Below, in pieces: positions 53,716-64,000 of a stretch of DNA of 64,000 bases. How positions within the stretch are numbered: position 1 is the first letter of the stretch; every line of letters begins with the position of its first letter. Below the pieces are notes generated by a model, which worked only from the letters and a program-made list of their open reading frames with translations, was not told the origin of the DNA and ran no database searches. The position numbers and the translations under genes are program-made. The DNA is taken from NCBI RefSeq assembly GCF_000737515.1, contig NZ_CP006587.1:4645001-4709000 (forward strand). Direction: 5' to 3'. Source of the stretch: Hymenobacter sp. APR13 (GTDB lineage Bacteria > Bacteroidota > Bacteroidia > Cytophagales > Hymenobacteraceae).

Positions 53716-56700
53716 TTGGATTCCTGTCACAATCGGGCGTTCCTTGCACGGCCGCCGCGACGTTGCGCGCTCAATTACGCTATCCTTACTGTATTGGAAA
53801 CGGGCCATTACGAAACGCTGGTTACGCAACAGCTGCGGAGCCAGCTTGCTGCATTAGAAACCACTACCTACGCTATTGCGGAAAAGAATCTGGGGGCCGA
53901 TGATGCGGCGGTGTTTATTACGCGGCACCTGACGCAGCTGCTGGGCAAAGTGCTGGGGCAGCTGGCCAAGAACGAAGAGGTAAGTGAGCAGCTGACTCTG
54001 GCCAACGAAGTCATTGCCTACCTGCAGGAAAAGTCGGACGTGCTGGCCGAGGGCAGCGGCCTGGCGCCGGAAGGGCAGCTGCTGCGGGCGGTGCTGCCGC
54101 GGCTGCAGGTGCCGCTGGCCGCGCAAAACGACTTGGGCAAGCACCTGGATAGCCTGGAGCCGGCGCTGCGGTTTTCGCAGAGCGACCTGTTCAGCGGGGG
54201 CAATACGGAGCTGTCGATGGAGGCCGAGCTGAAGAAGGAAATTGCGACGGCCGACCGGATTGACTTTATCGTGAGCTTCGTGAAGTGGAGCGGGCTACGG
54301 TTGCTGCTGCCCGCACTCCAGGCGTTTGCCGAGCAGGGCAAGCCGCTGAGGCTGCTCACGACCACCTACATGGGCGCCACCGACCAGAAAGCGGTGGATG
54401 CGCTGGCCGCGCTGCCGGGAGCCGAGTTGCGCATCAGCTACAACACGGCCCACGAGCGGCTGCACGCCAAGGCCTACCTGTTCAGCCGCAACTCGGGGTT
54501 TGATACGGCCTACATCGGGTCGAGCAACATGAGCCGCTCGGCGCTGACCAGCGGGCTGGAGTGGAACGTGAAGGTGACGGCCCAGGACAATGCGGCCATT
54601 TTGAACAAGTTTCGGGGCACGTTTGAGACCTACTGGAACTCGCCGGAATTTGAGGACTACCGCAGCCTGCCGGAACAACGCTTGAAGCTGGCCCAGGCTT
54701 TGCGCCAGGCCGATAGTGGAGCGGCGGAGGCTGATGCGTTGCCCAACTTCCGCATCCGGCCGTTTCCCTACCAACAGGAAATCCTGGACCGGCTGGCCGT
54801 GGAAAGGAGCCTGCGGGGGCACTTCCGCAACCTGGTGGTGGCGGCCACGGGCACGGGCAAAACGGTGGTGTCGGCGTTTGACTACGCCCGGTTTGCCCGG
54901 CAGCTGACGGGGTTGCCGCGGCTGCTGTTTGTGGCCCACCGGGAAGAGATTCTGCGGCAGGCCCGGGCCACGTTCCGGCACATTCTGGGGGAGGCCAACT
55001 TCGGGGAGTTGTGGGTGGGCGCCGAGCAGCCGGTGCAGTTTGAGCACCTGTTCGTGTCGGTGCAGACCTTCGCCTCGCGGCTGGATTTCTTTCAGCAGAC
55101 CATCCCGCGCGACTACTATCAGTACCTGGTGATTGACGAAGTGCACCACTTGGCGGCAGCTTCGTACCGGCCCATCCTGGCGTGGTTTGAGCCGACTATT
55201 CTGCTGGGGCTGACAGCCACGCCGGAGCGGGCTGATGGGGAGAGTATTCTGCCGGACTTCGATAACACCATTGCGGCGGAAATCCGGCTGCCCGAAGCCA
55301 TTGCGCGGGGGCTGCTGGTGCCGTTTCAGTACTTCTGCATCACCGACCCCGTGGACTACCGTAACGTGCGCTGGACCAACGGGCGCTACGCCGCCGAGGA
55401 CCTGACCAACGTGTACACCGGCAACGACGTGCGGGTGAGTGCCATTTTGGGCGCCCTGCAGCGCTATTTGCTGGCGCCCCAGCAGGCGCGGGCCCTGGGG
55501 TTCTGCGTGACGCGGGAGCACGCGCGGCTTATGGCGGCCAGGTTCCAGGCGGCCGGCCTGCGGGCCAGCTACCTGGCCAGCGGCGACACCACGCCGGAGC
55601 AGCGGCGGGCGGCGGTGGCGCAGCTGCGGCGCGGGGAGCTCAACTACCTGTTCGTGGTGGATATCTTTAACGAGGGCGTGGACATTCCCGAGGTGGACAC
55701 GCTGCTGTTTTTGCGGCCCACGGAAAGCCTGACGGTGTTTTTGCAGCAGCTGGGCCGGGGGCTGCGCCTGCACGAGAGCAAGGAGTGCCTCACGGTGCTG
55801 GACTTCGTGGGGCAGGCCCGGCAGGAGTACAGCTACGAGCAGAAGTTCCGGGCGCTGCTGGGCCGCACCGGCGGCTCGGTGCTGAGCGAAGCGGAGGCGG
55901 GCTTCCCGCGGCTACCGGTGGGCTGCAGCATCCAGATGGAGCGCGAGGCCATGCGGTTCATTCTCGACAACATCAAAGCCGCCACCGGCGAGAACGTGCG
56001 GGTGCTGGAACGGCGCATCCGCGGCTTCGCCCTGGAAAGTGCGCTGCCGCTCACGCTGGCCAATTTTCTGACGCACACCCACTTTGCGCTGGTGGATATT
56101 TACCGCTCCCGCGGCGACCGGGGCTGGACGGCGCTGAAAGTGCGGGCGGGGGTGTTGGTGCCGCAGGCGCTGGCGGCCACGGAAAGACAGCTGGTGGGCA
56201 GCGTGTGGCGGTTGGCCCAAGTGAACGGGCCCGCTTTCCTGGCCTTTGTGCGGCGGGTATTTGCGGGAGTGGAAGAGCTGACGGAGCTGTTGGCCATGCC
56301 GCTGGGCCCGGAAATGGGGCTGATGCTGCACTACCTGCTTTACCAGAAGCCGGGGCCCAGGCTGGGCCTGGTTTCGTTGCCGGACAGCCTAGCCACGCTG
56401 CGGGCCATGCTGACCCTGACGGCGGAGGTGCGGGAGGTAGTGGACGTGTGCGAAGCGCAAATCAGCAGTCCGCCCGTGGCCCTGGACCTACCCTACCCCT
56501 GCGCCCTGCAGCTGCACAGCCGCTATGGCCGCGACGAAATCCTGTGCGCGTTCGGGGTGTGGACGTTTGAGCGGAATCCGTCGGTGCGCGAGGGGGTGTG
56601 CTACGTAGCGGCGCTGAACACGGAGCTACTGTTTGTGACGCTTGAAAAGTCCAGCCGCAACTACTCCCCTACCACGCTCTACCACGACTATGCCATTAGT

Positions 56701-56976
56701 GACACGCTGTTTCACTGGGAGTCGCAGAACAGCACGGCCGAGGACACGCCCAAGGGCATCAGCTACATTCAGCACCAGGCGCAGGGCAAGCAGATTCTGC
56801 TGTTCGTGCGCGAGCGGAACCAGGATGCGGCGGGGCTGACCATGCCCTACGTGTTTCTGGGGCCGGTACGGTACCTGAGCCACCAGGGCAACCGGCCCAT
56901 GGCCATTACCTGGGAGCTGGCCACGCCGCTGCCGGGGTTCCTGTGGCATGATGCCGGGAAGATGGCCGTGGGCTAG
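53716..56976 (+). CDS. PLD-domain SF2 helicase with DUF3427 C-terminus
   Basis: A protein of up to 1,086 residues. After GHYETLVTQQLRSQLAALET comes a phospholipase-D-like nuclease domain (HxK in HERLHAKAYLFSRN, then GFDTAYIGSSNMSRSAL, about residues 245-275), an SF2 helicase with Walker A AATGTGKT (about 377), DEVHH (about 474), LTATPER, and the second RecA domain with IFNEGVDIPEVDTLLFLRP and QQLGRGLRL. The last 250 residues are DUF3427 (FGVWTFERNPSVREGVCYVA). TTG at 53794 may be the true start. Related PLD-helicase-DUF3427 proteins occur in phage-defence islands. Confidence 0.9.
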   Translation: MDSCHNRAFLARPPRRCALNYAILTVLETGHYETLVTQQLRSQLAALETTTYAIAEKNLGADDAAVFITRHLTQLLGKVLGQLAKNEEVSEQLTLANEVIAYLQEKSDVLAEGSGLAPEGQLLRAVLPRLQVPLAAQNDLGKHLDSLEPALRFSQSDLFSGGNTELSMEAELKKEIATADRIDFIVSFVKWSGLRLLLPALQAFAEQGKPLRLLTTTYMGATDQKAVDALAALPGAELRISYNTAHERLHAKAYLFSRNSGFDTAYIGSSNMSRSALTSGLEWNVKVTAQDNAAILNKFRGTFETYWNSPEFEDYRSLPEQRLKLAQALRQADSGAAEADALPNFRIRPFPYQQEILDRLAVERSLRGHFRNLVVAATGTGKTVVSAFDYARFARQLTGLPRLLFVAHREEILRQARATFRHILGEANFGELWVGAEQPVQFEHLFVSVQTFASRLDFFQQTIPRDYYQYLVIDEVHHLAAASYRPILAWFEPTILLGLTATPERADGESILPDFDNTIAAEIRLPEAIARGLLVPFQYFCITDPVDYRNVRWTNGRYAAEDLTNVYTGNDVRVSAILGALQRYLLAPQQARALGFCVTREHARLMAARFQAAGLRASYLASGDTTPEQRRAAVAQLRRGELNYLFVVDIFNEGVDIPEVDTLLFLRPTESLTVFLQQLGRGLRLHESKECLTVLDFVGQARQEYSYEQKFRALLGRTGGSVLSEAEAGFPRLPVGCSIQMEREAMRFILDNIKAATGENVRVLERRIRGFALESALPLTLANFLTHTHFALVDIYRSRGDRGWTALKVRAGVLVPQALAATERQLVGSVWRLAQVNGPAFLAFVRRVFAGVEELTELLAMPLGPEMGLMLHYLLYQKPGPRLGLVSLPDSLATLRAMLTLTAEVREVVDVCEAQISSPPVALDLPYPCALQLHSRYGRDEILCAFGVWTFERNPSVREGVCYVAALNTELLFVTLEKSSRNYSPTTLYHDYAISDTLFHWESQNSTAEDTPKGISYIQHQAQGKQILLFVRERNQDAAGLTMPYVFLGPVRYLSHQGNRPMAITWELATPLPGFLWHDAGKMAVG

Positions 56977-57067
56977 GTATTGACCGCCCTGAGGCGGGGC
57001 AAGGGCCACTGGTAATTTTGCGTGAGCGGTCTTCGTTTCGTTTGCGCCTGTTTTATCTTCGCTGCCT

Positions 57068-58171
57068 ATGTCTGGTCTCTCGTTACCATCTGATTATCCG
57101 CAGTTCCTGACCGAGCTAAAGGCCCACATCCGCGAAACGCAGGTGCGGGCGGCGTTGGCGGTGAATTCAGAGTTGGTGTAGCTGTACTGGCGCATTGGCC
57201 GCAGCATCTTACTGCAAGAGCAACAGCAGGGTTGGGGAGCCAAAGTAGTTGCCCGACTGGCAACGGACCTGCGCACTGAGTTTCCAGCTATTACCGGCTT
57301 TTCTGCGCGTAACCTGCGGTATATGAAGGCGTTTGCAGAACAGTGGGCAGACGAAGCAATTTTGCAGCAGCTTGCTGCAAAATTGCCTTGGTTCCACAAC
57401 TGCATCCTACTGGACAAGGTGAAAGACCCGGTCGAGCGGGCATGGTACGTGCAGCAGACCATTGAAAACGGCTGGAGCCGCAACGTGCTGGCCGCGCAGG
57501 TGGAAAGCGGCCTCTACCACCGGCAGGGCCGGGCGGTGAGCAACTTTAGCCGCACACTGCCCGCCCCGCAGTCGGAGTTGGCGCAGCAGATTCTGAAAGA
57601 CCCGTACACCTTCGATTTCCTCTCCCTGGGGCCGGAGGCGCAGGAACGGGATTTGGAGCGGGGCCTGCTCGAACATGTGCGCTCCTTCCTGCTGGAGCTG
57701 GGCAAGGGCTTTGCGCTGGTGGGCAGCCAATACCACCTGGAAGTCGGCGGGCAGGACTACTACCTAGATCTGGTGTTCTATCACCTTAAGCTGCGGTGCT
57801 TCGTCGTCATCGACCTGAAGATGGGCGAGTTCAAGCCCGAGGACAGCGGCAAGATGAACTTCTACCTGGCAGCGGCCGACGACCTGCTGCGCCACCCGAC
57901 CGACCAGCCCACCATCGGGCTGATTTTGTGCAAAAGTCAGAACCGGGTGGTAGCGGAATACGCATTGCGCGGCCTGAGCCAGCCGATTGGCGTGGCCGAG
58001 TGGCAGCTTACCACTACCCTGCCCGCGGAGCTGCGCCGCAGCCTGCCGACGTCGGAAGAGCTGGATGCCGTGCTCGGGAAGCCGGCGGCGGCGGTGGCGG
58101 CGCCGGGTCAGGGACCTGCCGGGCATAGTGCTGCAGCAGCGCCGAATTCTTCTGCTGGCCCCACTCAATAA
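57068..58171 (+). pseudogene. YhcG/DUF1016-type PD-(D/E)XK nuclease, amber-interrupted
   Basis: ATG 57068 begins MSGLSLPSDYPQFLTELKAH, then VRAALAVNSELV, TAG at 57179-57181, and LYWRIGRSILLQEQQQGWGA in the same frame. The N-terminal DUF1016 wHTH part is followed by the nuclease domain: VGSQYHLEVGGQDYYLDLVF, FVVIDLKMGEFKPEDSGKMN with the catalytic D, DLK set, and MNFYLAAADDLLRHPTD. Members of this family are nucleases linked to restriction and defence loci. Translation could restart at 57323, giving a 282-residue nuclease without most of the N-terminal domain. Confidence 0.88.
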
Positions 58172-59815: not shown

Positions 59816-62050
59816 TCAGTCGACCAGCAACTGGGTGACGGCCGCCGTGTTCCGGGCCCAGGTGGTGGAGTAGACTTCATCGGCCTCGGTGGTTTCCACT
59901 ACCTGCAGGTTCTGGGCCCGGGCCTTGACGGCCAGCAGCTGGCCGATGCTCAATTTGCTCTCCAACTTTCGCAGCAATGTCTGCACCCCGCCCACGTTGA
60001 GATTCTGCACCAGCTGGCCCTGGAACGACATTTCCAGCCACACAATCTCGCGTTGAGCTACATCCAGCACCCCAAACACCAGCCCCTTGGTCAGGGTCTT
60101 GGTTACCCGTACCTGTTGCTGCACGCAGGAGGGGTCATAGGCCACCCCGCTGCTGGAGATGCGCATGGGGTGCTGGCTGCTCATCCAGCCCACCACCAGG
60201 TTGGGCGAGAGGGCGCCGTGGGTGTAGGCGTTGGAAGTGAAGGTGACATATTGGGCCTGCGCCTGCTGCAGGACCGGCAGGTTCAACTCGATGTATTCGG
60301 CCGTGCCTACCTGGTCGGGAATGGACTGAATGTCGCCGCTGTGCTTGCAGCCGGTGGCCACCAACTGCGAGAACGAGCAGCTTTCCGTGCCACCCGCGTA
60401 GGATACGGTGCAGCTCAAATCCATGTCGAGGTGCTGGGCGGGCAGGCCTGTGCCCCACTGCATGAACAGGCGCACAGAATCCCCCTCGACGGGGAAGCGG
60501 GTGCCCATCAGGGCACCGGGCAGGTCCTGCACGGTTTCGCTGCGGTCGCCAATGGCAACCGGAATCTTGTAGAGGGCCGGGTCGATGTAGATGGTGCGGT
60601 GCGGGGTGGGCTGGGCCGCAAACCGGCGCTCCATGGCCAGCAGACACAGGCTGGCCACGGCCGTTTGCATGGCTTCCAGCTCGGGCTCGTCGTACATGTC
60701 GAGCAGGTGATTGGTGGGAATCTGCTTGCTGGCGCCGCCCAGCGGTTTGACGGCCCGCTTGCCACCCTTGATAAAGTAGGTGTCGGCGTACATGTTGAGG
60801 GTGAACACCAGCCGGGCCGGCACCTTATCAATCATGGCGGCAAAGGCGGCAATGGTGGGCTCGGCCCCAAACCAGAGCATGTTGGCAAACAGGGACCGGG
60901 CGAACAGGCCGGGCCGCTGCTGAAGCAGGGCGAAGGTCTGGGGCGCATCCACCCGCAGCCGGAAGTGGTTGACGCGGCCCTGCCACACGGGGTAGGTCTG
61001 GTGGTAGAATACGTCCAGGGTTTCGCGCAGCTTGTCTCGTCCGCCCTTCTGGCTGTACTCGGCCAGGCGGAGGGCCCGGATGAAGCGCACCCACATGCCC
61101 CGCTTGGGGTGCATGATTTCGCAGAGCTGGGCCGGGCTCTGGGGCAAGGCATTGAGCCAGTCGGCCACCATGGCAGCTTCCCGGCGGCTGTACTTGAGCT
61201 TGAGGTCGGCGGTGGCCTGCACCCGGGCCTGGGCGCTGCGGTCAAGCGGAGCGGCGAGGTGGGCGGCGTTGCGCTGCTGCTTGCGGAGGATGGTTTTCGG
61301 CTCGACGAGCTGCAGGAAGCCGGTTTTCCTGAACCACAGATACCGCAGGATGTCGGTGGGCGAGGTGAAGAAGGCCTGGGCCTGTTGGGGCTGCCCCAGG
61401 GTCACGTACGCATCGATGACGGCCATGCGGGTTTCCTTCATGGCAATGACCACGTCGGCGGGCAGGGGCAGCACGGCCAGCAAGCGTTGCAGGCTATCCT
61501 GCTGGGTGGCATCGAGGGCCGTCTTCGACGCCAGCAGGTCGCGCAGGTAGGCGGTCACCTCCGCATCGGTCCACAAGGTCAGTTCTTTGAGCTTGCTGCC
61601 CTGGCCGGTGTACTCGAGGGAAGCCAGCTCGAACGGTGTTCCGCAAAAGGGGCAGCCGTTGTAGCGCTCCAGCGGAAAGGTATCTGGGGGGATAAGGTGG
61701 CCGCAGGGCAGGCGGGTGCCCTTGTGCTGGAATACGTTGGCTAGCCAGGTAACCAGGTGGTCGAGGGGGCCTTCGCCCGTGAGCTGGTCCCAGCCCTTGA
61801 CCAGGGGCGTCCAGTTCTTGTCCGTGCCGGTTACCTCGCGCAGCACGGCCAGTAGCTGGTCCTGGAACGCGGACGTGGTGCCCACCAGCGCCTGCCGCAA
61901 AGGTTCCGCCGTGGCATACCCCAGCTTGGCTAGGTTGGCTATAAGCAGAGCCGTATCGGCCGACGGAGCAGCCGTAGTGGTGACTTGCGCTGCTGCCGGG
62001 ACATACATTGCTTGCTGCCGCAGGCTAACCTTGGCGATGGAATCGTTCAT
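59816..62050 (-). CDS. RING-type domain protein of the MXAN_6230/SCO0854 kind
   Basis: A 744-residue protein. Residues 1-105 are helical; at 114-140 lies a zinc-ribbon/RING-like motif RLPCGHLIPPDTFPLERYNG with Cys116, His118, then CPFC at 133-136. A long helical middle follows (LSRREAAMV.., GMWVRFIRALRLAEYSQKGG), then a region resembling a vWA-like fold (LDMDLSCTVSYAGGTESCSF; DLSCT in place of a MIDAS) and ends with a helical tail. I recall this family as RING domain-containing proteins of unknown role shared by myxobacteria and actinobacteria. It follows a tRNA-shaped RNA and an RNA ligase on the same strand. Confidence 0.75.
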   Translation of the reverse strand: MNDSIAKVSLRQQAMYVPAAAQVTTTAAPSADTALLIANLAKLGYATAEPLRQALVGTTSAFQDQLLAVLREVTGTDKNWTPLVKGWDQLTGEGPLDHLVTWLANVFQHKGTRLPCGHLIPPDTFPLERYNGCPFCGTPFELASLEYTGQGSKLKELTLWTDAEVTAYLRDLLASKTALDATQQDSLQRLLAVLPLPADVVIAMKETRMAVIDAYVTLGQPQQAQAFFTSPTDILRYLWFRKTGFLQLVEPKTILRKQQRNAAHLAAPLDRSAQARVQATADLKLKYSRREAAMVADWLNALPQSPAQLCEIMHPKRGMWVRFIRALRLAEYSQKGGRDKLRETLDVFYHQTYPVWQGRVNHFRLRVDAPQTFALLQQRPGLFARSLFANMLWFGAEPTIAAFAAMIDKVPARLVFTLNMYADTYFIKGGKRAVKPLGGASKQIPTNHLLDMYDEPELEAMQTAVASLCLLAMERRFAAQPTPHRTIYIDPALYKIPVAIGDRSETVQDLPGALMGTRFPVEGDSVRLFMQWGTGLPAQHLDMDLSCTVSYAGGTESCSFSQLVATGCKHSGDIQSIPDQVGTAEYIELNLPVLQQAQAQYVTFTSNAYTHGALSPNLVVGWMSSQHPMRISSSGVAYDPSCVQQQVRVTKTLTKGLVFGVLDVAQREIVWLEMSFQGQLVQNLNVGGVQTLLRKLESKLSIGQLLAVKARAQNLQVVETTEADEVYSTTWARNTAAVTQLLVD

Positions 62051-62128
62051 GGGGCCGGGAAGATGGGGTGGCTAAAGGCCGGTAAACAAGCTGATTGATC
62101 ATATCATCCCGCCGTCGAGGTGGGGAGT

Positions 62129-62239
62129 GAAGCAGGTTGGATTCGAACCAACGACCCTAAAATCCTGGAAGTAAGCACTGGTTGACCCGAGGAGGTAATT
62201 CCACTGCTGTTTCATGCTCTACCACTGAGCTACTGCTTC
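62129..62239 (-). ncRNA. tRNA-shaped RNA with a 47-nt anticodon loop
   Basis: Minus strand, 111 nt. Acceptor stem GAAGCAG/CTGCTTC (7 perfect pairs), then TA at positions 8-9, D arm GCTC-AGTGGTA-GAGC with the GG pair, A26, a 5-pair anticodon stem TGAAA/TTTTA (one G-T), variable loop GGGTC, T arm GTTGG-TTCGAAT-CCAAC, and discriminator A. All of this is canonical. The loop between the anticodon stem strands (62209-62163) is 47 nt instead of 7. Inside it AGCA-G-TGG (62208-62201) pairs with CCA-G-TGCT (62181-62174). No CCA is encoded. It may be a tRNA mimic, an intron-bearing tRNA or a disrupted tRNA gene. Confidence 0.75.
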
Positions 62240-62439
62240 GAAAGGGCCTTATTCAGATTAAAAGGAACACCGGAAAAAACCAGGTAATTGAGCTGCTGAT
62301 TCGGGACAGGAAGAGAAGTAAGCAACTCTTGACCTGGCTTTTTCTAGGCGGTGGCCGCTTTGCTGTAATTAGGCCGGTAAGATAGGAGGGTTTTGCAGCA
62401 TATTCCACCGCTGGAACGGTTGCGCCACAAAATGCCTGA

Positions 62440-62514
62440 AGCCTGCGGCAGCGGTTTCTGCCGGACCCGGAGCTTTTGAGTTGGCACCGCAGCAAGTGGC
62501 GGGATGTGGTATAG
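62440..62514 (+). pseudogene. Second copy of the SWHRxKW C-terminal fragment
   Basis: After a stop at 62437-62439 the plus-strand frame reads FLPDPELLSWHRSKWRDVV and ends in TAG at 62514. It matches the end of the small frame at 59,588-59,755. Too short to name. Confidence 0.4.
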
Positions 62515-62527
62515 TACCCAACAGAAA

Positions 62528-62560
62528 GCCCGGCCCGGCTCTATGCGAACAGGGCCGGGC
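62528..62560 (-). terminator. GC-rich hairpin after the RNA ligase gene
   Basis: GCCCGGCCC (62528-62536) and GGGCCGGGC (62552-62560) pair perfectly across 15 bases. It lies 31 bases beyond the ligase stop and separates it from the tRNA-shaped RNA. Confidence 0.65.
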
Positions 62561-62590
62561 CGGAAATCAGGCTGTTATATGGGTAGAAGA

Positions 62591-63475
62591 CTAGGCCTTA
62601 CCGCGTTGATTGAGCGTGCGCTCATAGTCCTCGAAGCGAATTTTGACAATTGAGGAGCGGTCGGCAGTGCGTAGAATAGCCCCTTCCGCCCGGCCGGGGA
62701 TGGCCTGACCAGACAGGGCGGCCTGCGTTTGCGGAATATGCTCCCGCAGCCACGCCAGCACCGTTTCGTGGGTAGATTCGGCGGCGGGCACCGCATAGGT
62801 GGGCAGTTGGGGGACGTCTGGCAGGCCTACCTGGGTGAGGTAGGCCGTCAGCTCCTTTCCGGACAGGAACGGTTGGCCATAACGCATACCAGCCGGGGTT
62901 TCCGACTCGCGCCAGGTGGACAGCTCCCGAATATCGGTCTGCAACTGAGTGGCCAGGGCGGCGGCATCTGTAAACACGGCCACGTCGAAGACCCGAAACC
63001 CGACCTGTTCGGGTGGACCATACTGCTTGGAGTTGCCCGTGACTTTGCCACCGTAGAACTCTCCAAACAAAACGGTTAGTGGAGCCGGCTGGCCGGTGCC
63101 GGCGCCGTAGGGTAGCCGGGGTAAGTGCCCCTGTTCATCGGCGTAATGCGGGAAAATCAGGCGGCGCAGTCCTTCCACAATGCCCACAGCCGGGTCAAAA
63201 AGCAGGTCGCCGCTAACGGTGAGCAGGTTTTCGCGGGAGCCTACCACATACGAACCATCGGCGAAGACCAGCAGGCGGGCACTGGTACCGTCTATCTTCT
63301 CGGTGGCCGTGAGAGGTTGGCTGAACAGCGCCGGGGTGGTGAAGTCGGTAGTGAGGCGGCCCCGGTCGCCGAGGGCATGCAGCGTAAGGATGGACGGGTA
63401 TTTGGTCAGCGTGTTGAGTTGGGCCAGGGAATGAGCCACCGCAGTGCGCGCTTGGCTTTTAGCAGGGAGTAGCAT
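62591..63475 (-). CDS. RNA ligase, Rnl2-type nucleotidyltransferase
   Basis: A 294-residue ATP-dependent RNA ligase. Motif I is TEKIDGTSARLLV with the adenylated Lys60; motif Ia-like SYVVGSRENLL follows; motif III is FGEFYGGKVTG (137-147), motif IIIa RVFDVAVF (161-168), motif IV EGAILR (264-269) and motif V SIVKIRFEDYER with Lys278. This order is the Rnl2/DRB0094 group, which seals nicks in duplexed or structured RNA. Short, without the C-terminal domain of T4 Rnl2. The start at 63475 is about 70 bases behind the broken nuclease gene, so the genes were an operon. Confidence 0.9.
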   Translation of the reverse strand: MLLPAKSQARTAVAHSLAQLNTLTKYPSILTLHALGDRGRLTTDFTTPALFSQPLTATEKIDGTSARLLVFADGSYVVGSRENLLTVSGDLLFDPAVGIVEGLRRLIFPHYADEQGHLPRLPYGAGTGQPAPLTVLFGEFYGGKVTGNSKQYGPPEQVGFRVFDVAVFTDAAALATQLQTDIRELSTWRESETPAGMRYGQPFLSGKELTAYLTQVGLPDVPQLPTYAVPAAESTHETVLAWLREHIPQTQAALSGQAIPGRAEGAILRTADRSSIVKIRFEDYERTLNQRGKA

Positions 63476-63544
63476 AAGACAACGGATTAATGGGGTGAAG
63501 CTACTGAAAAAAGATACCGGTCCACCGGTGAGGCGGGCCGGCGG

Positions 63545-64000
63545 CTAAGCGGCCTGCCCGAGGTGGGGCGTAGCCAGTGACTGCCCAATCTGGCGGGCGT
63601 GGTGACGTAGCAGGGCGGTGTACTTCTTGCGGCCGTGCTCCATGAGGATGGTGTTGACACTTATTTCCACCGTCCAGAGTGCATGGGGGGCTTTCTTCTG
63701 CCCCCCCGATGATGAGGAAGCAGTCAGCCTGCAGCACGTCAAGATAGAGGGTGGCCTAGCGGTCGTAGTCGTACTTCTCGATGGTAATCAGGAAGTGTGC
63801 CAGGTCGGGGCTGCTGGTGGTTTTGAAGTCGATGAGCGTGAGCTGGCGGCCGGCGCGGCTGCGCACCAACAGGTCCGGGCGGAGCTTCCCCCCTACTCCG
63901 GTGGCCGCGTGGATGGCAATGTAGGACTGTTCGGCGTGGCCGCGGTAGAGCAGGTCGCGGCAGTAGCGCTGGCGGCGCACTTGGCGGACCAGCGTTTCCA
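63545..64000 (-). pseudogene. PD-(D/E)XK nuclease gene, broken twice and cut by the window edge
   Basis: From the window end the frame reads ETLVRQVRRQRYCRDLLYRG, then GKLRPDLLVRSRAGRQLTLI and DFKTTSSPDLAHFL, with the catalytic PD...DFK arrangement. TAG at 63758-63756 replaces what is probably Gln (YDYDR-x-ATLYLD). Then one G too many in the G7 run (63707-63701) must be skipped to go on QKKAPHALWTVEISVNTILM and end at 63545. N-terminus lies outside the window. The original protein was presumably the first member of the RNA ligase operon. Confidence 0.8.

Follow-up and report, generated by a model that had tools for sequence, protein, structure and literature searches.

The window analysed here is a stretch of 64,000 nucleotides (nt) of the genome of Hymenobacter sp. 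APR13 (contig NZ_CP006587.1, positions 4,645,001 to 4,709,000). In it, a repeated structured RNA module lies directly upstream of, and on the same strand as, the gene for a 744-residue protein with a RING-like zinc site and a TerD-fold domain, hereafter the RING-TerD protein encoded by the RING gene. One copy of the module interrupts the anticodon loop of a tRNA-like RNA, and another stands as a free hairpin. At the loci of the protein's relatives the RNA elements are conserved, covariation supports their structure, they are linked to the RING-TerD gene, and RNA-repair genes are neighbours. The RING-TerD protein is the constant partner of the RNA. We propose, with our confidence evenly balanced, that the tRNA-mimicking RNA forms a ribonucleoprotein particle with the RING-TerD protein and serves as a scaffold, sensor or bait in a response to tRNA (anticodon) damage. 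The main features are as follows, in positions of the window.

62277 to 62340, minus strand: free-standing hairpin copy of the module, the leader hairpin (covariance model R1, 59.8 bits, E 1.3e-11).
62128 to 62239, minus strand: interrupted tRNA-like RNA (Rfam tRNA, 55.2 bits, E 3.7e-9, whole model).
62168 to 62207, minus strand: 40-nt module in the anticodon loop of that RNA, reading P2′ GCAGTGG, AATTACC, TCCTCG, GGTCAA, P2 CCAGTGC, TTACTTC.
59816 to 62050, minus strand: gene of the 744-residue protein, with N-terminal helices, an incomplete RING-like zinc site (about residues 114–137), more helices, and a TerD-fold domain (residues 522–688).

In the tRNA-like RNA the acceptor, D and T arms are intact, and the anticodon stem, UGAAA/UUUUA, has 5 bp. 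The anticodon loop reads CA-[40 nt]-CAGGA and is thus not the 7-nt loop with U33 of a functional tRNA. A preliminary description of this DNA, made from the sequence alone, had recognised a tRNA-like RNA with an enlarged anticodon loop, as the Rfam match confirms; the enlargement is the 40-nt module, whose P2 has one G–G mismatch here. The leader hairpin had been overlooked. It runs from P1 through an internal loop and P2 to a UUACUUC apical loop, the order of the module being circularly permuted relative to the insert. The 5.0-Mb genome itself has three matches to the module pattern, two of them at this locus, and none to the reversed pattern, which is more than chance would give. For the third match (locus L102) no partner strand was seen by eye, and it was read as chance; near it, at positions 1–1450 of L102 (contig C2), a long frame resembles by eye an E1-like/JAB (ThiF plus Mov34) fusion. 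The folding energy of the single window RNA differs weakly from that of shuffled sequences (z −1.97); the case rests on the relatives.

Relatives of the protein in named genomes number 361, and the loci of the best 80 of these 361 were analysed. A strain of Flavobacterium johnsoniae carries the locus (L076). The module RNA found in them is organised as follows. One strand consists of GGUCAA, the 7 nt of P2, and UUACUUC; the partner strand consists of an A, the 7 nt of P2′, and AAUUACC, with GGU and ACC starting a second helix, P1. Closed at its P2 end, the module is a free hairpin; closed at its P1 end, it is an insert in a tRNA. All 80 loci have the pattern upstream of the RING gene, on the gene's strand only and never on the other, in 1 to 11 copies per locus (median 5, total 347). 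A partner complementary at 7 of 7 positions precedes an [AG]ATTA[TC]C box in 141 of the 343 exactly spaced copies, as against a mean of 33 when P2 is shuffled among copies; 40 of the 343 have no such box within reach.

The structure was examined in sets chosen in different ways. Leader hairpins were picked on conserved letters alone, giving 54 sequences, while 26 of the 80 loci gave none or a duplicate. P2 is perfect in 46 of the 54, has six pairs in 7 and five pairs in 1. In their alignment, 97.6% of P2 cells and 82.5% of P1 cells are paired, the P1 pair 5–80 failing in 44 of 54; two-sided changes occur at 10 of 14 pairs, and the covariation score is 0.342, compared with 0.125 for shuffled alignments and at most 0.105 for slid partners. 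A second alignment holds 27 interrupted tRNAs, namely the window RNA and 26 hand-picked from the script's finds. Here 97.2% of cells pair (89.4% in P2), 19 of 26 pairs show two-sided changes, and unguided RNAalifold recovers P1 and P2 along with the acceptor, D and T arms. Of 84 insert-type modules selected by letters alone, 52 have at least six of seven pairs, against about 21 when shuffled; the remaining 32 may perhaps be explained in part by the pattern bridging adjacent hairpins.

In the loci scanned, Rfam offers no name for the module. The window RNA matches only tRNA at the gathering score, and allowing E up to 10 adds merely one chance snoRNA; it matched no Y RNA family and no intron family. 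In the RNA region of 10 of the 80 loci, tRNA matches were the only ones found, and the module matched no Rfam family. A group I intron in a tRNA was considered and rejected, the insert being 40 nt long with no match to an intron family, and a likeness to hairpin-ribozyme letters was considered and dropped. As a separate observation, Flavo-1 RNA (Rfam RF01705) occurs some 2 kb away from the RING gene, on the other strand, in L037 (3806–3897) and L097 (4135–4226).

The link between module and protein holds in a broader sample, 345 evenly drawn Bacteroidota genomes. The protein is present in 11 of these and the pattern in 39. All 11 genomes with the protein have a cluster of at least two copies immediately upstream of its gene, and none of the 334 without it has such a cluster. 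The other 28 pattern-bearing genomes have one isolated match each, or two that lie on separate contigs (G205) or 57 kb apart (G338); the reversed pattern, as a control, likewise gives scattered matches, up to three per genome. Twelve further sampled genomes of the genus that contributes most of the protein-bearing ones lack both protein and cluster, one of them having a single isolated match.

The preliminary description had proposed a covariance-model search for the RNA beside the ligase and the RING gene in other genomes. Model R1, built from genomes other than the window's, finds matches in 8 of 61 genomes of the window's genus, and 7 of these are just upstream of the RING gene or of its fragments. 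In the eighth, G028 (L283, contig C577), a leader hairpin and a cut interrupted tRNA are followed by 19 residues that may derive from the end of the protein (tblastn E 0.041), apparently the remnant of a deleted RING gene. Two genomes, G022 and G053, have short RING-like fragments and no R1 match. BLAST with the tRNA-like RNA finds it in 5 of the 61 genomes, every one beside the RING gene.

These data bear on the alternative that the RNA has no function and is either a tRNA gene in decay or a tRNA that has received a mobile insert. ARAGORN, which calls no tRNA at 62128–62239, would agree with decay. Covariation argues that the RNA is not a tRNA disrupted by chance, and together with the co-occurrence and the free-standing module copies it refutes this explanation, to which we attach practically no weight.

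The tRNA shape is an optional part of the module loci. A script found a module-interrupted cloverleaf in 71 of the 80 loci, in 62 of them within a span of at most 160 nt; the other nine gave only longer spans, mostly containing a second module. Nine loci have the module pattern and no interrupted tRNA by the script. The position of the insert in the anticodon arm varies: in Hymenobacter it splits the loop, and in most Flavobacterium cases it interrupts the stem on its 5′ strand, so that a tRNA-like arm such as GGACA-CUUUUAA-UGUCC remains. A pattern that requires U33 returned the loops CUUUUAA (28), CUUCUAA (9), and CUUUUGA, UUUCUAA and CUUAUAA (1 each). Corresponding tRNA-like RNAs of different Flavobacterium genomes differ in anticodon (UUU, UCU and UAU; Lys, Arg and Ile by the code), and their acceptor stems are alike. 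Different anticodons on like acceptor stems argue against decoding, and fit baits. Upstream of the RING gene in L032, L035, L027, L039, L047 and L051 there are interrupted tRNAs with a nested second module, mostly with an extra apical hairpin resembling a T arm. In L041, two long stretches near-alike by eye (about −1110 to −860 and −720 to −500 from the RING start) lie between interrupted tRNAs, as if the array had grown by duplication.

The location of the insert in the anticodon arm invites comparison with splicing. The bulge-helix-bulge of archaeal introns comprises a 3-nt bulge, a 4-bp helix and a 3-nt bulge; like it, and like the permuted tRNAs of Archaea and algae, the module places a helix between internal loops at the anticodon arm. 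The module might accordingly be a splice or processing element, the interrupted tRNAs being reserve tRNAs that are cut and then religated by repair ligases. When the insert is removed in silico, 50 of 53 cases yield a 5-bp stem, 41 of the 53 also with U33, the positions having been searched so as to favour a stem. For this reason, only the outcomes that repeat in Flavobacterium and Hymenobacter carry weight. In three Hymenobacter relatives a 5-bp stem with a 7-nt loop results and no base is left over; in many Flavobacterium four bases remain, and the arm is Lys-like (CUUUUAA, 18 of 53) or Arg-like (CUUCUAA, 9 of 53). RtcB is often a neighbour (29 of 80 loci), and one hairpin of phage Weasels2 appears to enclose a circularly permuted tRNA (tentatively, P2 7/7, T arm 5/5, and acceptor 7/7 but not unique). 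However, the module does not have the bulge-helix-bulge form: its helix is 7 bp, its loops are larger and conserved in letters, it occurs also in hairpins lacking a tRNA, and its hosts are bacterial. Moreover, the insert position and the leftover bases vary, the Hymenobacter loops are without U33, anticodons differ on like acceptors, and many free hairpins contain no exon. We regard the splice element as improbable. The same low estimate applies to a bacterial and phage cut-and-join system in which the RING-TerD protein would recognise the module, interrupted and permuted tRNAs would stay inactive or act as bait, and RtcB- or Rnl-type ligases would religate them upon attack by an anticodon nuclease.

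Ordinary tRNAs also gather at some of these loci. ARAGORN, run on 50 loci, finds at least six tRNAs upstream on the gene's strand in seven. In L032, L034, L038, L051 and L058 the array comes to within about 1 kb of the gene; it lies 3.5 kb away in L033 and 5 kb away in L035. That of L034 has 22 tRNAs. Among the 50 Rfam tRNA matches listed for its genome (150 of 341 candidates scored), 20 are in the array and 30 elsewhere, and for this reason the array looks like an extra tRNA set.

As for the protein, the preliminary description's open reading frame of 744 residues stands. Its RING assignment is less secure: Prok-RING_4, the sole Pfam match, reaches 24.1 bits, under the curated cut-off of 27, which makes the label weak. 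Four putative zinc ligands, C116, H118, C133 and C136, are nonetheless invariant across 61 homologues. The TerD fold, which had been overlooked, was identified by fold comparison. Foldseek against the PDB returned nothing at E 0.001 or better, and Ro60 is absent among the structural matches listed, a listing that proves nothing either way. NCBIfam NF041916 (MXAN_6230/SCO0854 family RING domain proteins) matches residues 8–683 with 147.6 bits, below its equivalog cut-off of 600; these proteins are distant relatives across most of the length, and hairpins near them are tentative. Database relatives number 4245 at E up to 1e-3 among 7997 scored, and they are labelled only "RING", "TerD family" or "hypothetical". 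Tandem RNA repeats immediately before a protein gene recall type III toxin-antitoxin systems, in which case the repeated upstream RNA would inhibit a toxic RING-TerD protein. Since the protein matches no toxin family in Pfam or PADLOC, and the neighbours are RNA-repair genes, we hold this to be very improbable.

The repair neighbourhood was charted by calling neighbour families through similarity to one Pfam-checked representative each. Besides RtcB, the neighbours co-oriented with the RING gene in the 80 loci include T4-Rnl1-type ligases (14), Pnkp-type kinase-phosphatases (10), RlaP (10), Hen1 (9) and PNKP-type ligases (9). At least one core repair gene, that is, one of these families or the Rnl2-like ligase, lies on the same strand in 49 of 80 loci, and 0 of 89 matches are on the opposite strand. 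A WYL regulator is present in 44 loci, on the opposite strand in 43 of them. More distant relatives of the protein have opposite-strand neighbours, rtcR close by in Variovorax and an RNA ligase in Vibrio.

In the window, the four elements of the preliminary description lie on the minus strand in the order it gave, and the full series runs from the nuclease remnant through the Rnl2-like ligase, the leader hairpin and the tRNA-like RNA to the gene of the 744-residue protein. The further features are as follows.

63756 to 63998, minus strand: PD-(D/E)XK-like nuclease remnant, a frame with stops further upstream; the family was assigned by eye only.
62591 to 63475, minus strand: Rnl2-like ATP-dependent RNA ligase of 294 residues (Pfam RNA_ligase PF09414, 43.3 bits, cut-off 27).
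62378 to 62384, minus strand: candidate Bacteroidota −7 promoter element TATCTTA, a weak script match to TAnnTT just upstream of the leader hairpin.

TAnnTT is the Bacteroidota −7 consensus. Of the broken nuclease that had been described, the remnant frame was recovered, its family being judged by eye. The ligase was upheld by its Pfam score; KxDG, the other motifs and the Rnl2 subtype were recognised by eye. It is the enzyme that is co-oriented with RNA and RING gene in the window, as in an RNA-repair operon. The suggestion that the RNA is paired with this ligase is not supported. The ligase is variable, occurring in 2 of 61 genomes of the genus, both of which also have the RNA, and the RNA is found elsewhere without it; a dedicated ligase–RNA pair was therefore rejected. 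Support exists for the broader claim that the locus serves RNA repair and has a tRNA mimic of its own: neither of the outcomes that the preliminary description had named as refuting it was obtained, given the co-occurrence of the module with the RING gene and the covariation. The mimic may be a substrate, sensor or decoy, as had been suggested. Elsewhere in the window, at 53716–58171, a PLD/helicase protein resembling type IV restriction enzymes (PADLOC mREase_IV, 773 bits) precedes a YhcG/DUF1016 nuclease (PADLOC PDC-S02), probably a defence neighbourhood.

Beyond the 80 loci, R1 matches lie near Segatella and Prevotella relatives of the protein (E 1.4e-6 and 1.5e-6), Segatella also having an interrupted tRNA. 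Hairpins with UUCCUUC, AUCCUUC or UUACUUC loops seem to precede the gene in Streptomyces, Kitasatospora, Deinococcus and phage LpeD, and hairpins of this sort apparently follow it in Vibrio, Variovorax and phage Weasels2; both observations are tentative and come from few sequences. R1 scores are weak in the latter (E 0.05 and 0.84 in Weasels2, 0.23 in Vibrio, 2.6 in Variovorax). Among 15 loci, of which L264 and L265 are from Bacteroidota, several show UU[AC]CUUC-type hairpins next to the gene that are convincing by eye; a strict 7/7 flank partner is present in 6 of 15, and the 7-letter loop alone recurs elsewhere in those same loci. With so few strict partners, stray loops, and good R1 scores only for Segatella and Prevotella, the module outside Bacteroidota stays tentative. 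The Weasels2 relative sits among tRNA genes, 3 kb from RtcB, and the RcXuper relative adjoins tRNAs. Viral contigs have no close relatives of the 744-residue protein; pattern matches lie in at least 120 stretches of them, and the 80 listed, holding one match each, were read as chance.

The mechanism we infer, from transcription as one leader to protein binding, a bait or scaffold role and its trigger, would run as follows. The leader RNA would be transcribed ahead of the RING-TerD gene, and tRNA-processing enzymes may free its tRNA-like parts. The modules would bind the RING-TerD protein, and the resulting particle, serving as bait, sensor or scaffold, would display tRNA shapes and anticodon loops close to the repair enzymes. 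The enzymes alongside vary, being RtcB, Rnl1, Pnkp-Hen1, RlaP or, here, the Rnl2-like ligase, sometimes with spare tRNAs.

Several observations weigh against this proposal. The anticodon loop of the window RNA, lacking U33, is a poor mimic of an intact anticodon. No core repair gene was found in the fetched stretch of 31 of the 80 loci, a stretch that is short for some loci. A single genus accounts for ten of the 11 protein-bearing genomes in the phylum sample, and the 80 loci represent the closest relatives out of 361. Finally, the last module lies at most 110 nt from the start codon in 67 of 80 loci, which would suit a purely cis-acting 5′ leader that switches the RING-repair operon in response to a tRNA nuclease, to the RING-TerD protein itself, or to tRNA that is uncharged or cleaved. 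All copies being upstream on the same strand also speaks for such a leader, and the Salmonella rtcBA operon is reported to be responsive to tRNA fragments (PMC7790460). On the other hand, up to 11 copies across more than 1.5 kb (L070), together with the tRNA arrays, exceed usual leaders, and the weakly scoring hairpins of Weasels2, Vibrio and Variovorax are apparently downstream of the gene. The cis-acting leader is a possible explanation, which we consider rather unlikely.

A particle of RNA and RING-TerD protein would have a precedent. Two papers present Ro60/TROVE proteins with a tRNA-like partner as a platform for RNA repair (PMC7824862; PMC7790460). The Ro60/Rsr–Y RNA (YrlA)–RtcBA operons of Salmonella and Deinococcus likewise combine a tRNA-mimicking RNA and a dedicated protein gene with RtcB-type repair genes, which accompany part of the present loci. 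In contrast, the Pfam scan gave no TROVE match and Rfam no Y RNA match here, and the RNA is a repeated module. The two arrangements may be analogous; membership in the Ro60/Y RNA family was found for neither the RNA nor the protein. Pnkp-Rnl-Hen1 and Rnl1/RtcB cassettes contain the kinds of enzymes that are co-oriented with the RING gene in the 49 loci, but the literature searched holds no description of an RNA array or a RING-TerD protein as part of them. That literature also holds no description of the RNA, and the protein may be discussed in RNA-repair reviews outside it. The names MXAN_6230 and SCO0854 led to no paper. PMC2864571 has no match to the terms searched in it; PMC9723704 has none for RtcB, tRNA-like, RING or RNA ligase, and where it treats Rfam and structured RNAs it is silent on the element.

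If the proposal is correct, the module would constitute a new family of structured RNA and, with its protein, a second RNA–protein platform beside Ro60/Y RNA in bacterial RNA repair. For a protein family now annotated as "RING", "TerD family" or "hypothetical", it would supply a partner RNA, and a laboratory Flavobacterium would allow a direct test of what the RNA-repair operons of bacteria detect and restore.

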